From NCBI GenBank assembly GCA_002686955.1, contig NYZA01000062.1:1-11339 (forward strand): a stretch of DNA of 11,339 bases. Direction: 5' to 3'. The position numbers were made by a program, and so were the translations under genes. Of the stretch, positions 1 to 11,339 are shown piece by piece. This DNA is from Gemmatimonadota bacterium. Lineage in GTDB: Bacteria; GCA-2686955. Every line of letters begins with the position of its first letter. Positions within the stretch are counted from its first letter, which is position 1. The notes below the pieces were generated by a model. It did no database searches. It worked only from the letters and a program-made list of their open reading frames with translations, and was not told the origin of the DNA.

Positions 1-1091
1 AATATCTCCAGATCTATGTCACCGTCGAGGTCGGCGACGAGGGGTTGGCCGCGGAATGCTCCGCTTCCGTAGAACTGTGGCCAAGTGGGGTACACCTCTC
101 CGTAGGGATCGTAGATAGCGACATTGCCGGAGTAGGAGCTCATGACGATCGCCTGGGCCACGCCGTCGATCGCGTTGATGGCGACCGGCATGGTCTCCAC
201 GTGCCCGATGCTGGGCGGGGGCCAGCCATCGATCGGCTGGCCGTCGATCGAGAAGGCGTGGAGGTGTGATCTTCCACAATTGATCATGATCTCGGGTCGA
301 TGATCACCTTGCAGATTGGCGATGCCGATCCCGTAGGGAGAGATCGAGCGGTCGACTTCGGCAAGGACCGCATTGGGACCGAAGGGAGTGCCGTCGTGAT
401 GGAATGCGTACAGCCACCCGGAAGTGTGGAACTCGCTGTATCTCCCCCCTCCGAAGACGAGTTCCATGTCTCCGTCGAGGTCGAGATCGGCGACCGCGAT
501 CTCGCTCTCGATGATCATGTCCCAGAAGAAGACCGGCCAGCCGGCGGCCTCCTCACCGTTGGCATGGAAGATGTGGACGCGCGCGGTGTCGACCGGGGCC
601 TGCTGGATCGCGTTGATTGTTGGCACCAAGATTTCCAAGCGCCCGTCGCCATCGAAGTCGTGGACCGTGGGGGTTGGTACACTGAGCCACGAGACGCGCA
701 GCGGCCAACCCTGCGGCTGCGTCGCATCAATATGGAAGGCGTGAATGGTCCCTTCCCAAGGACCGCGAGTCGATGCGTTAGCGAGGACCTCCACGATTCC
801 GTCGTTATCGATGTCGCAGGGTGTGAAGGTCCCATCGATCGGCCCAAGTGTCTGGATCGGCCAGCCCGGAATGGCGTTGCCGTTGCGATCCCACATTCCA
901 ACCCACGGGTCTTGTTCCATACCCGATCCAGCGATGACTTCCATATGTCCATCACGATCGAGATCGACAACCGCTGGTGCCCCTCCGGTCAGCGCGAAAT
1001 GCACGGGCCAACCCTCGTTCTCACCGACCGCGAACGCGGCCGTAGCGGCGGTGAGAACGAGGAGCGTGACGCCGCCGGCAGTGCGCCTCAC
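1..1091 (-). CDS. Secreted FG-GAP/VCBS repeat protein, C-terminus beyond window
   Basis: I translated this frame by hand: it is open from GTG 1091 to the left edge (363 codons seen) with no stop. The start GTG overlaps the TGA of the upstream beta-helix gene (GTGA, 4 bp), so translation is probably coupled. The N-terminus is a signal peptide: RR, then a hydrophobic run, with likely cleavage after residue 21 (TAAFA, then VGENEGW). The mature part consists of repeats of about 50-57 residues, each with a GWP turn (residues 27, 76, 128, 184, 289) and a calcium-binding DxDxDG-type loop: DLDRDG 43-48, DIDNDG 93-98, DFDGDG 145-150, DLDLDG 202-207, a degenerate NLQGDH 259-264, and DLDGDI 354-359. This is the FG-GAP/integrin-alpha-like propeller pattern, probably one beta-propeller. 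Such proteins are exported and bind ligand or surface; the ligand is unknown. The long plus-strand frame opposite is its shadow. Confidence 0.9.
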   Translation of the reverse strand, partial: MRRTAGGVTLLVLTAATAAFAVGENEGWPVHFALTGGAPAVVDLDRDGHMEVIAGSGMEQDPWVGMWDRNGNAIPGWPIQTLGPIDGTFTPCDIDNDGIVEVLANASTRGPWEGTIHAFHIDATQPQGWPLRVSWLSVPTPTVHDFDGDGRLEILVPTINAIQQAPVDTARVHIFHANGEEAAGWPVFFWDMIIESEIAVADLDLDGDMELVFGGGRYSEFHTSGWLYAFHHDGTPFGPNAVLAEVDRSISPYGIGIANLQGDHRPEIMINCGRSHLHAFSIDGQPIDGWPPPSIGHVETMPVAINAIDGVAQAIVMSSYSGNVAIYDPYGEVYPTWPQFYGSGAFRGQPLVADLDGDIDLEI

Positions 1092-2638
1092 TGCGGGTCC
1101 GGGGACGACCAACACTGTCCCACTCCTTGCAGGTACTCGACACAGGGCTCCACCTCGTTTGGATCCCAGAAGCTGTGGGGACCGCCATAGGCGCCCATAT
1201 CGTTGCGGCGTAATCCCAGCCCCGGGCCGCCCAATGCGTCCCAATAATTAGTATCGTCCCACCCGACGTCAATGGCATCCGACCGCACGTTATCTTGCTC
1301 CGGATAGCATGGCGACGACTCGTCATCGATCCTCAACATGAAGCTCACCGAGGCGGTAGGCGGGTCGATGAGCCCCTGGAACGCCGCGCTGTTGTTGCCG
1401 GTAACTTTGTTCAAGTCGCCATCTCCCTCCAGCGACGGATGTTCGTAATCCAGCTGATTGCCATCGAGCATATTGAACTCGGAGTCCCAAAGATCGGGTG
1501 CATCCGGCCCGGGCCACGTCTGGCCCGCAGGATGAATCCCGATCGCAGCCCTTGATCCTTCCCGACCGGTCCACCGTATGACATTGCTGCGGATCTTCAC
1601 GGCGGCCTCTGGATGTATCAAGAGCCCGGATCCGTCGGTAAGTTGAATTGTGTTGTTGTGAACCAATGCCTCGACAATGAACTCGTCGTCACCCGTCGCG
1701 GCTTTGTCGTAGCACTCATCTGGATCGGCGACGCAGATGTCATCCGAAGGGTCATAAACGGGCGGTTCGCCCACAACGATGCCTCGGCCGAATTGATTGG
1801 GGTCCGCGTTGATGTTACGAACCACGATGTTGTTGCGGACGATTCCCTTCGAGCTGTGCACGAAGTGGATCCCATGTTGGTCGGGGTTGCAGTAGAAGAG
1901 GTTGTGCTCGACGATCGTGTCGAAGAGAAGCGGGACTTCGGGAGGAGCCCCGGGCTCCACATGCCGCCAGTCGAGCCGAGCGTAGCCGACGTGTATGCCT
2001 TCGCTGTTGCCGCTGACCCGATTGTTGGCAATCTTGCCGACGAAATGGTGGATTGTCATGCCATCGGTGGTTTCCTCGGTACCCATCGCGACGATCTCGT
2101 TGTTGGTGATCGCCCCCCATTTCAGCGACTGGTTGCGCATGCTGATCGCGGCAGCCTCGCCCAGGCCGAAGATCTCGAAGCCCTCGATCGTGACGCGCAT
2201 GTCGTTGCACTTGGTCTGAGGCCGACCGGCGAAGTCGGAGTCGTTGAAGATCTCTACGACGGCGCCGCGGTGGTCCTCGTCTTGATTTGTCTCGTCGTAG
2301 CGCACCGTGACCGGAGCAGCGCCCGACTGCTCGGCCCTCAGAGTCAGTGTGAACTCGGGAGGATTCGTTGCGGGGGGGGCGATCCAAATCTGTTCGGTGT
2401 AGGTGCCCGACAGCACGAACACCTCGTCGCCGTGGGTGGCGTCGTTCACCGCCGACTGAATGGTCGTGTAGCAAGGAGGGGGGCCCGTGCAGTTCGGATC
2501 CACAACCAGCTGGGCGGCGTCAACCCCTGGACTGACACCGAGTACCGCGATCAGCGCGAGGGCTGAGCGGAGAGGCTGAGCGGAGAGGCTGAGCGGAGAG
2601 GCTGAGCGGAGAGGCTGAGCGGAGAGGCTGAGGTACAC
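1088..2638 (-). CDS. Secreted right-handed parallel beta-helix protein
   Basis: The 516-residue frame begins at GTG 2638 and ends in the GTGA overlap with the FG-GAP gene. Residues 27-41 (ALALIAVLGVSPGVD) are a signal-peptide core with likely cleavage near A41. After it, YTTIQSAVNDATHGDEVFV (57-75) is the classic entry strand of right-handed parallel beta-helix proteins (pectate-lyase-like fold, PbH1 repeats), where a long list of potential sites is introduced. Asn-rich coil turns follow: NNEIV 179, NNRVSG 205, EHNLFY 244, RNNIVVRN 268, HNNTI 327, RSNVIRW 350. The C-terminal MGAYGG (481-486) is common at the end of this family. No catalytic triad of a known polysaccharide lyase is evident, so the role is an exported adhesin or carbohydrate-binding/degrading protein; which one cannot be told. 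Residues 2-26 are encoded by a 13-bp tandem repeat, and the ATG at 2642 with the better ribosome binding site is out of frame. Confidence 0.88.
   Translation of the reverse strand: MYLSLSAQPLRSASPLSLSAQPLRSALALIAVLGVSPGVDAAQLVVDPNCTGPPPCYTTIQSAVNDATHGDEVFVLSGTYTEQIWIAPPATNPPEFTLTLRAEQSGAAPVTVRYDETNQDEDHRGAVVEIFNDSDFAGRPQTKCNDMRVTIEGFEIFGLGEAAAISMRNQSLKWGAITNNEIVAMGTEETTDGMTIHHFVGKIANNRVSGNSEGIHVGYARLDWRHVEPGAPPEVPLLFDTIVEHNLFYCNPDQHGIHFVHSSKGIVRNNIVVRNINADPNQFGRGIVVGEPPVYDPSDDICVADPDECYDKAATGDDEFIVEALVHNNTIQLTDGSGLLIHPEAAVKIRSNVIRWTGREGSRAAIGIHPAGQTWPGPDAPDLWDSEFNMLDGNQLDYEHPSLEGDGDLNKVTGNNSAAFQGLIDPPTASVSFMLRIDDESSPCYPEQDNVRSDAIDVGWDDTNYWDALGGPGLGLRRNDMGAYGGPHSFWDPNEVEPCVEYLQGVGQCWSSPDPQ
2561..2632. 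repeat. 13-bp tandem repeat (5.5 copies) in beta-helix gene start
   Basis: Plus-strand unit GGCTGAGCGGAGA occurs at 2561, 2574, 2587, 2600 and 2613, all identical, followed by a 7-base partial copy 2626-2632. It lies directly inside the start of the minus-strand beta-helix gene. Because 13 is not a multiple of 3, each copy gained or lost changes which start codon reads into the gene. Five full copies keep GTG 2638 in frame; one, four or seven copies would put ATG 2642 in frame instead. Confidence 0.97.
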
Positions 2639-2650
2639 GCATGTCTACGT

Positions 2651-2657
2651 CCTTCCT
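2651..2657 (-). promoter_or_regulatory. Strong ribosome binding site serving out-of-frame ATG
   Basis: On the minus strand AGGAAGG lies 8 nt upstream of ATG 2642-2640 (AGGAAGGACGTAGACATG), an ideal spacing. For the in-frame GTG at 2638 the spacing is 12 nt, which is long. The ATG frame reads MRVPQPLRSASPL and then leaves the gene after the repeat. This is the sequence reason for thinking the ATG is the ancestral start. Confidence 0.65.
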
Positions 2658-2662
2658 GTGCC

Positions 2663-2705
2663 GGGGCGTTGGCCCCTATGTGTCGCGCGGTCGATTCGGC
2701 CGCGC
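2663..2705 (-). promoter_or_regulatory. Two consecutive hairpins in the beta-helix leader
   Basis: The inner hairpin has a 5-bp stem (2663-2667 with 2672-2676) and a 4-base loop. The outer has a 9-bp stem with one T-G pair (2685-2693 with 2697-2705) and a 3-base loop, ATT. On the minus strand both would sit in the 5' leader just upstream of the AGGAAGG. Neither is followed by a T-run on the minus strand, so they are not intrinsic terminators. A role in leader folding or attenuation is inference. Confidence 0.35.
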
Positions 2706-3254
2706 TTCATCTACTAGAGTAGCACCAAAATCCAGATCACAAGGGACAGAATCGAAAAAGTGCGCCGACGATATTGTCTGATAGGCGTCATATATACTGC
2801 ACAGAAGCCGGGCAACGCCGAACCCTACGGGCCGGGGCGCGTGAAGGTCGCGCGGCGAAGGGGCGTGCGTGGCTTGCTCACACGGAACCGGATCGCAGTG
2901 CGTCCCCAAGAAGAAAAGATAGAAAGGTGGTTCCATGCAGATTCTCTCAGAAATATGTCGACAGGCTTTTCGCGCCTAGATGCGGCTCGTGCCGACCTGG
3001 CGACGGAAATACGCAGGGAGCGCGCTGGACCAGAGGTGTCGCGAGAGAACGTGACGCTTTCGAGTGGAGAAGTCGGAATCATGGAGATCGGCCGGCAGGC
3101 AAGCAACAGTAGTTCCCGGCAGGTCCACTTAGCGGGTGCGGCAAGTGGCGATGGGGGGAGTGGGAAGGGGCCGCGAACTGTGTTGCGGCCAAATCATACC
3201 GGTCTTGCGCAGATATTGGGCACGATCGGGGGGGCAGAGGCTACGCTGTGGATC

Positions 3255-10826: not shown

Positions 10827-11245
10827 TCACGGTGTGCTCCTGGGTGACCGACTCGCTGCGTTTCTTTTCCGCCCGGCCCGGTCCCGACGGATGCTCTTGG
10901 GGTGGACCTTGACGCCGAGCTCTTCCTCGAGGCGCCGCCCGAGCTCGGCGGGCCGGATGTCCGGCCGGGCCGCGATCTCGGCGTCGACGAACTCGAGGAC
11001 CTCGGGCGTCAGCTTGTGAGCGCGCTTGGGTCCCTTCTTGTCGGGCAAGAGCCCCGCAAGGTCATTGCGCTCGAACGCCTCTTTCGCTTGGTAGTAGGTC
11101 GGCCGGGAGAGCCCGCAAGACGAAACCGCGCGGCTGACGCTGTGGCCGTCCGTGCGGACTCTGCGGAGTATCTCGTATGTGACCTGCACGAGATCGCGCG
11201 GATCGATCTCCCGAGATCAGGAGGTCTGAAGTTATCATTTGGCAT
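10827..11245 (-). pseudogene. Helix-turn-helix transposon-type DNA-binding protein, frameshifted at both ends
   Basis: The core frame (GTG 11189 to TGA 10827, 120 residues) reads VTYEILRRVRTDGHSVSRAV, then SRPTYYQAKEAFERNDLAGL, LPDKKGPKRAHKLTPEVLEF and ELGRRLEEELGVKVHPKSI. These are two helix-turn-helix units (about 14-37 and 60-100) of the kind found in transposase-like proteins, with the conserved GLLPxKKGPKxAHKLTPEV hinge. The frame is open upstream to a stop at 11219-11217. The likely start ATG 11245 (MPNDNFRPPDL) is one base out of register; adding one C at CTCGG (about 11212) joins them as PPDLREIDPRDLVQVTYEIL. Near 10890 a second indel separates SIRR from GRAEKKRSESVTQEH, the basic tail in another frame. 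No catalytic domain follows. It converges on the istA fragment, so two different elements abut here. Confidence 0.6.
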
Positions 11246-11265
11246 CCCATCTGCACTACATTTCC

Positions 11266-11338
11266 GGCCGATCGGCAAGCCCCGAAATCCTCAAAATAGC
11301 CCTACTATTCCTGCGGTTTCGGAACTTGCCGATCGCCC
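11266..11338. repeat. 22-bp inverted repeat with 29-base AT-richer spacer
   Basis: The left arm 11266-11287 (GGCCGATCGGCAAG, then CCCCGAAA) is the reverse complement of the right arm 11317-11338 (TTTCGGAA, then CTTGCCGATCGCCC), 19 of 22 positions pairing. The spacer is richer in A/T than its surroundings and itself holds a small hairpin, AATAG/CTATT (11296-11310). It lies 20 bp upstream of the helix-turn-helix start on the minus strand, at the window edge. It may be facing element ends, a regulatory operator or a cruciform. Confidence 0.75.
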
Positions 11339-11339
11339 A

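Follow-up and report, generated by a model that had tools for sequence, protein, structure and literature searches.

The gene pair and its leader

The stretch of DNA analysed here (the window, 11,339 nucleotides long) carries two adjacent genes on its minus strand. The first encodes an exported right-handed beta-helix protein of 516 aa, runs from GTG 2638 to TGA 1088 (1088-2638, minus strand), and matches the Pfam families Beta_helix, NosD and DUF1565 above their cut-offs. The second (1-1091, minus strand) encodes an FG-GAP protein (Pfam FG-GAP_3 and FG-GAP) with its own signal peptide, and it is cut by the window edge. Its frame starts at GTG 1091 and overlaps the stop codon of the beta-helix gene as GTGA, in agreement with an earlier note on this DNA. 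Both genes are stop-free. Compared with their relatives on C149, another contig of the same genome, the beta-helix gene gives dN 0.30 and dS 0.91 (dN/dS ∼0.33) and the FG-GAP gene dN 0.14 and dS 0.98 (dN/dS ∼0.14); dN is far below dS in this comparison, which shows that purifying selection acted on both genes over most of their past. At window ∼2133 there is an in-frame internal deletion, where the beta-helix protein is without ∼45 residues found in C149 (SVWHRWYDLEQRYVTGLFIRDNYLE...).

The beginning of the beta-helix gene has an unusual layout. On the coding strand, the order is AGGAAGG, 8 nt, ATG (2642), C, GTG (2638), TACC, five units of CTCAGCCTCTCCG, CTCAGCC, and the signal-peptide core. 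The Shine-Dalgarno-like AGGAAGG (2651-2657, minus strand) is thus well placed for the ATG (2640-2642, minus strand), which is off-frame with the gene, while the GTG that is in frame (2636-2638, minus strand) has a spacing of 12 nt; the off-frame ATG and the in-frame GTG had been pointed out in the earlier note and are seen in the window sequence. The array itself occupies 2561-2632 (minus strand), and Tandem Repeats Finder describes it with a period of 13, 5.5 copies and 100% identity, so that the note's count between the ATG and the signal core, with a 13-bp unit present five times without change and 7 bases after it, is exact. Given that all five units are identical, the array probably expanded recently. 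Directly after it comes the hydrophobic core, SALALIAVLGV, and then a plausible cleavage site; core and A-x-A-like cleavage region together (SALALIAVLGVSPGVDA) span 2516-2567 (minus strand). This region was judged by eye, without a signal-peptide predictor.

A different kind of repeat is found at the far end of the window, where a palindromic element of ∼105 bp (11235-11339; CCGATCGGCAAG...CTTGCCGATCG) folds far better than its shuffles (z -5.9). The same genome has at least 40 dispersed copies, with 81-100% identity; the related genus has none. The element lies near a small HTH_32/HTH_29 gene (Pfam; 10827-11189), and it looks REP- or MITE-like.

Frame arithmetic of the array

What happens to the reading frame when the number of units changes? 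The window leader was recomputed with 0 to 8 units. With one, four or seven units, ATG 2642 falls in frame, as had been counted before; with two, five or eight, GTG 2638 is in frame, five being the present state; and with zero, three or six, there is no in-frame start ahead of a stop. At five units, the ATG frame meets a stop after 40 codons and is a decoy, so that competition between the two starts for a single Shine-Dalgarno sequence is to be expected. The locus has two of the features by which phase-variable loci are recognized: a perfect array, with a unit that is not a multiple of 3, within the 5' coding region, where a change in unit number toggles, by computation, between open and closed frames.

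There is another way to look at the array, namely that it merely lengthens the n-region of the signal peptide, with constitutive translation from GTG 2638 and a unit number that is fixed or tolerated. The GTG at five units does lead into an open 516-aa frame with a signal peptide that is long yet usable, and a 12-nt Shine-Dalgarno spacing may still work. However, 13 cannot be divided by 3, so that any single unit change loses the GTG frame. Among the relatives described below, a paralogue with one unit has its ATG, not a GTG, in frame, and two further array-bearing leaders are without a comparable start ahead of the core. Overall, we consider this explanation improbable.

A one-unit leader in the same genome

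A search of the window's own genome uncovered a paralogue with the same leader on contig C35. The block that the two have in common starts 31 nt ahead of the ATG, stops where the signal peptide does (2516-2673, minus strand) and is 96% identical if the unit number is ignored, with unrelated sequence on both flanks; on C35 (L004) it measures ∼111 bp and lies at about 5688-5577, minus strand. The signal-peptide core and cleavage region are kept. The C35 leader has one unit, and its ATG is in frame with the signal peptide. For a leader reduced to one unit, the earlier note had predicted a compact signal peptide, MRVPQPLRSALALIAALGA; such a peptide is indeed encoded by C35, as MRVPQPLRSALALIAALGASPGVDAAQL, with two substitutions relative to the prediction.

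The unit number is therefore 1 in C35 and 5 in the window, in a comparison with a remnant paralogue and not with an orthologue: the C35 leader is followed by a broken body fused to an FG-GAP tail, which marks it as a remnant. The bodies of the two genes are far more diverged than their leaders. The sharp edges of the shared block suggest either leader shuffling or a chimeric contig. As for the origin of the array, an ancestral leader with one unit would already have contained the 7-bp CTCAGCC as a direct repeat with its copies 13 apart, a possible seed of the expansion.

Arrays and decay among the relatives

The beta-helix/FG-GAP pair is recurrent in its own genome, where it is found on contigs C62 (the window), C149, C21, C55 and, in part, C11. 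Relatives also occur in G001, a different genus of the same family (GenBank JALXCG01, "Gemmatimonadetes bacterium"). Two of these copies have arrays of their own. In C21, (GCCTCTC)x3 comes after an ATG that is off-frame; when recomputed, one unit gives MVHAPLAVALFVCSATRAFAG and four units a longer form. In C523 of G001, the leader reads ATGA(GCTACTC)x3, again with the ATG off-frame, and two units give MSYSLLVGALALVSPDPARA. At 3.1-3.6 copies, both 7-bp arrays are short, which may make for slow switching in these genes. The leaders of C55 and of C567 in G001 were inspected as well; they have in-frame starts, and the array is absent, a point against a switch. In a further G001 leader of the family, on C485 (L043), GTG is the sole start and the signal-peptide region holds a C8 homopolymer (∼3166-3175). 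This run may be one more place prone to slippage, but homopolymers of this kind (C8/G8) are frequent in the genome of the window.

Could the unit number simply be an assembly artefact? The window's genome exists as a draft broken into 270 contigs (84.5% complete), and the G001 contigs have ∼2.5x coverage according to their titles. Against this stand the length of the window array, which at 72 bp would fit inside an ordinary short read, and the recurrence of the same arrangement, with different units, at three separate loci in two genomes. We regard an artefact as highly improbable.

More serious is the condition of the relatives. The array-bearing copies are partly decayed, and this counts against a functional switch. 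In C21, the beta-helix body is stop-free, and its FG-GAP partner (L038) has an otherwise open frame that is interrupted by TAG at codon 348 and again at codon 383 and ends in TAG at 610; this partner is read as a putative pseudogene. The C523 copy has ∼100 residues missing and a further frameshift. In C149 (L037, 2151-2540), an unrelated gene that is truncated at ...GPTNDGGYYLMGI and resembles, by eye, DUF2064-type proteins leads into the beta-helix body in another frame; because of this junction, the C149 gene is without its own leader or start. The body itself and its FG-GAP partner are intact.

These observations are the substance of the main rival explanation, in which the leader is slippage-prone in a family that duplicates and decays: the expansions would be neutral or mildly harmful, and most array-bearing copies would be en route to pseudogenes, with no selected reversible switching. 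The remnant on C35, with its deletion and its junction to an FG-GAP tail, fits this picture, as do the lost leader of C149, the two TAG codons in the C21 partner, and the deletion and frameshift in C523. The leaders are also CTC-rich, with short internal direct repeats. Two aspects of the data count against it, the intact state of the window pair and a bias in position. Neither the window pair nor the C21 beta-helix body contains a stop, and the window copy has been under purifying selection. Moreover, although each gene pair spans ∼3 kb, all three arrays are confined to the ∼50 bp from the ATG to the core, which random decay does not explain. On this evidence, decay of a slippage-prone leader seems an unlikely account of the locus, though one to be taken seriously.

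How unusual are such arrays?

Perfect arrays with at least 2.5 copies and a period of 4-30 were counted in a sample of 1.04 Mb, with 856 kb taken from the window's own genome and 179 kb from G001 and made up of arbitrary contigs and the family loci. The own-genome sample has only 7 such arrays, the longest being that of the window, which is far more than chance would produce. In the full 1.04 Mb there are nine: three in family leaders, three with a period divisible by three, and three of 4 or 5 bp. When at least 3 copies and a period of at least 7 that is not a multiple of 3 are required, only the leaders of the window, C21 and C523 are left in the 1.04 Mb. Leaving out the window, two arrays occur in six 60-bp leaders where 0.001 would be expected from the background (P ∼5e-7, a rough Poisson estimate). 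About 126 signal-peptide-like ORFs in the sample, picked by a crude test, contain no further array with a period of at least 7 not divisible by 3 and at least 3 copies. The idea that the genome is generally repeat-rich was rejected, as the sampled stretches contain few arrays.

The comparison set comprises one genome per species and two genomes of the phylum. A single-protein scan of 84,980 species genomes returned no close relatives, and in an alignment scan of species genomes the matches were confined to G001 and to distantly related beta-helix proteins. The 134 kb surrounding such distant homologues in other phyla is free of arrays, and the viral contigs contain neither relatives of the proteins nor matches to the leader. 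In the open-access literature, no paper on phase variation in this lineage was found.

A candidate phase-variation switch

On balance, the leader is probably, if only just, a translational phase-variation switch that works by slipped-strand mispairing in the signal-peptide region of exported beta-helix proteins that form a family of paralogues. Replication slippage would add or remove 13-bp units, and each change would move the gene among three states. With one, four or seven units, translation would begin at the strong ATG. With two, five or eight, which includes the present state, it would begin at the GTG, a weaker start that shares the Shine-Dalgarno sequence of the ATG and competes with the ATG. 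With zero, three or six units, there would be no start, and the beta-helix gene would be off. The FG-GAP partner may be switched along with it through translational coupling. Since the earlier note proposed it, the switch has gained support from the one-unit peptide of C35 and from frame-breaking arrays in two genera; reversible switching and the joint switching of both proteins are parts that we still only infer.

It is tempting to extend the three-state switch to the whole family, with each pair evolving a separate non-triplet repeat, of 13 or 7 bp, between the ATG and the signal core and populations stochastically displaying differing combinations of the exported pairs. This extension is tentative, and we think it rather doubtful.

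Comparison with known systems

The closest parallel comes from Neisseria, whose opa genes encode a family of paralogous surface proteins; variable pentamer (CTCTT) repeats in their leader-peptide 5' region shift the frame by slipped-strand mispairing (PMC3960869, PMC3899988). The position of the repeat in the leader, the logic of the frame shift and the multicopy family are alike. The differences are that the units here have 13 or 7 bp instead of 5, that the protein is a beta-helix (Beta_helix/NosD/DUF1565), whereas Opa is an outer-membrane protein, and that the window holds a candidate switch.

The licA gene of the Haemophilus influenzae lic1 locus (CAAT repeats) has several start codons just upstream of the repeat, and its downstream genes overlap the preceding gene (PMC2992063). 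The window recalls both features, with ATG 2642 and GTG 2638 as candidate starts, each in its own frame, directly ahead of the repeat, and with the GTGA overlap to the FG-GAP gene. In contrast, licA has a tetranucleotide in many copies and is an LPS gene, whereas the window gene encodes an exported protein and has only two candidate starts. In the same species, 7-bp repeats tune the surface proteins of hmw1A/hmw2A (PMC2651432). The unit length is that of C21 and C523; however, the hmw repeats are located in the promoter and tune transcription, whereas those of C21 and C523 come after the ATG and shift the frame. By analogy, the window switch would combine an opa-like position with licA-like alternative starts.

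If the switch is real, an opa-type design would have arisen, with differing units, far from host-adapted bacteria, in an uncultured environmental lineage of a poorly sampled phylum. The beta-helix/FG-GAP pair would then be something that populations gain by varying, perhaps, to speculate, against phages or predators.
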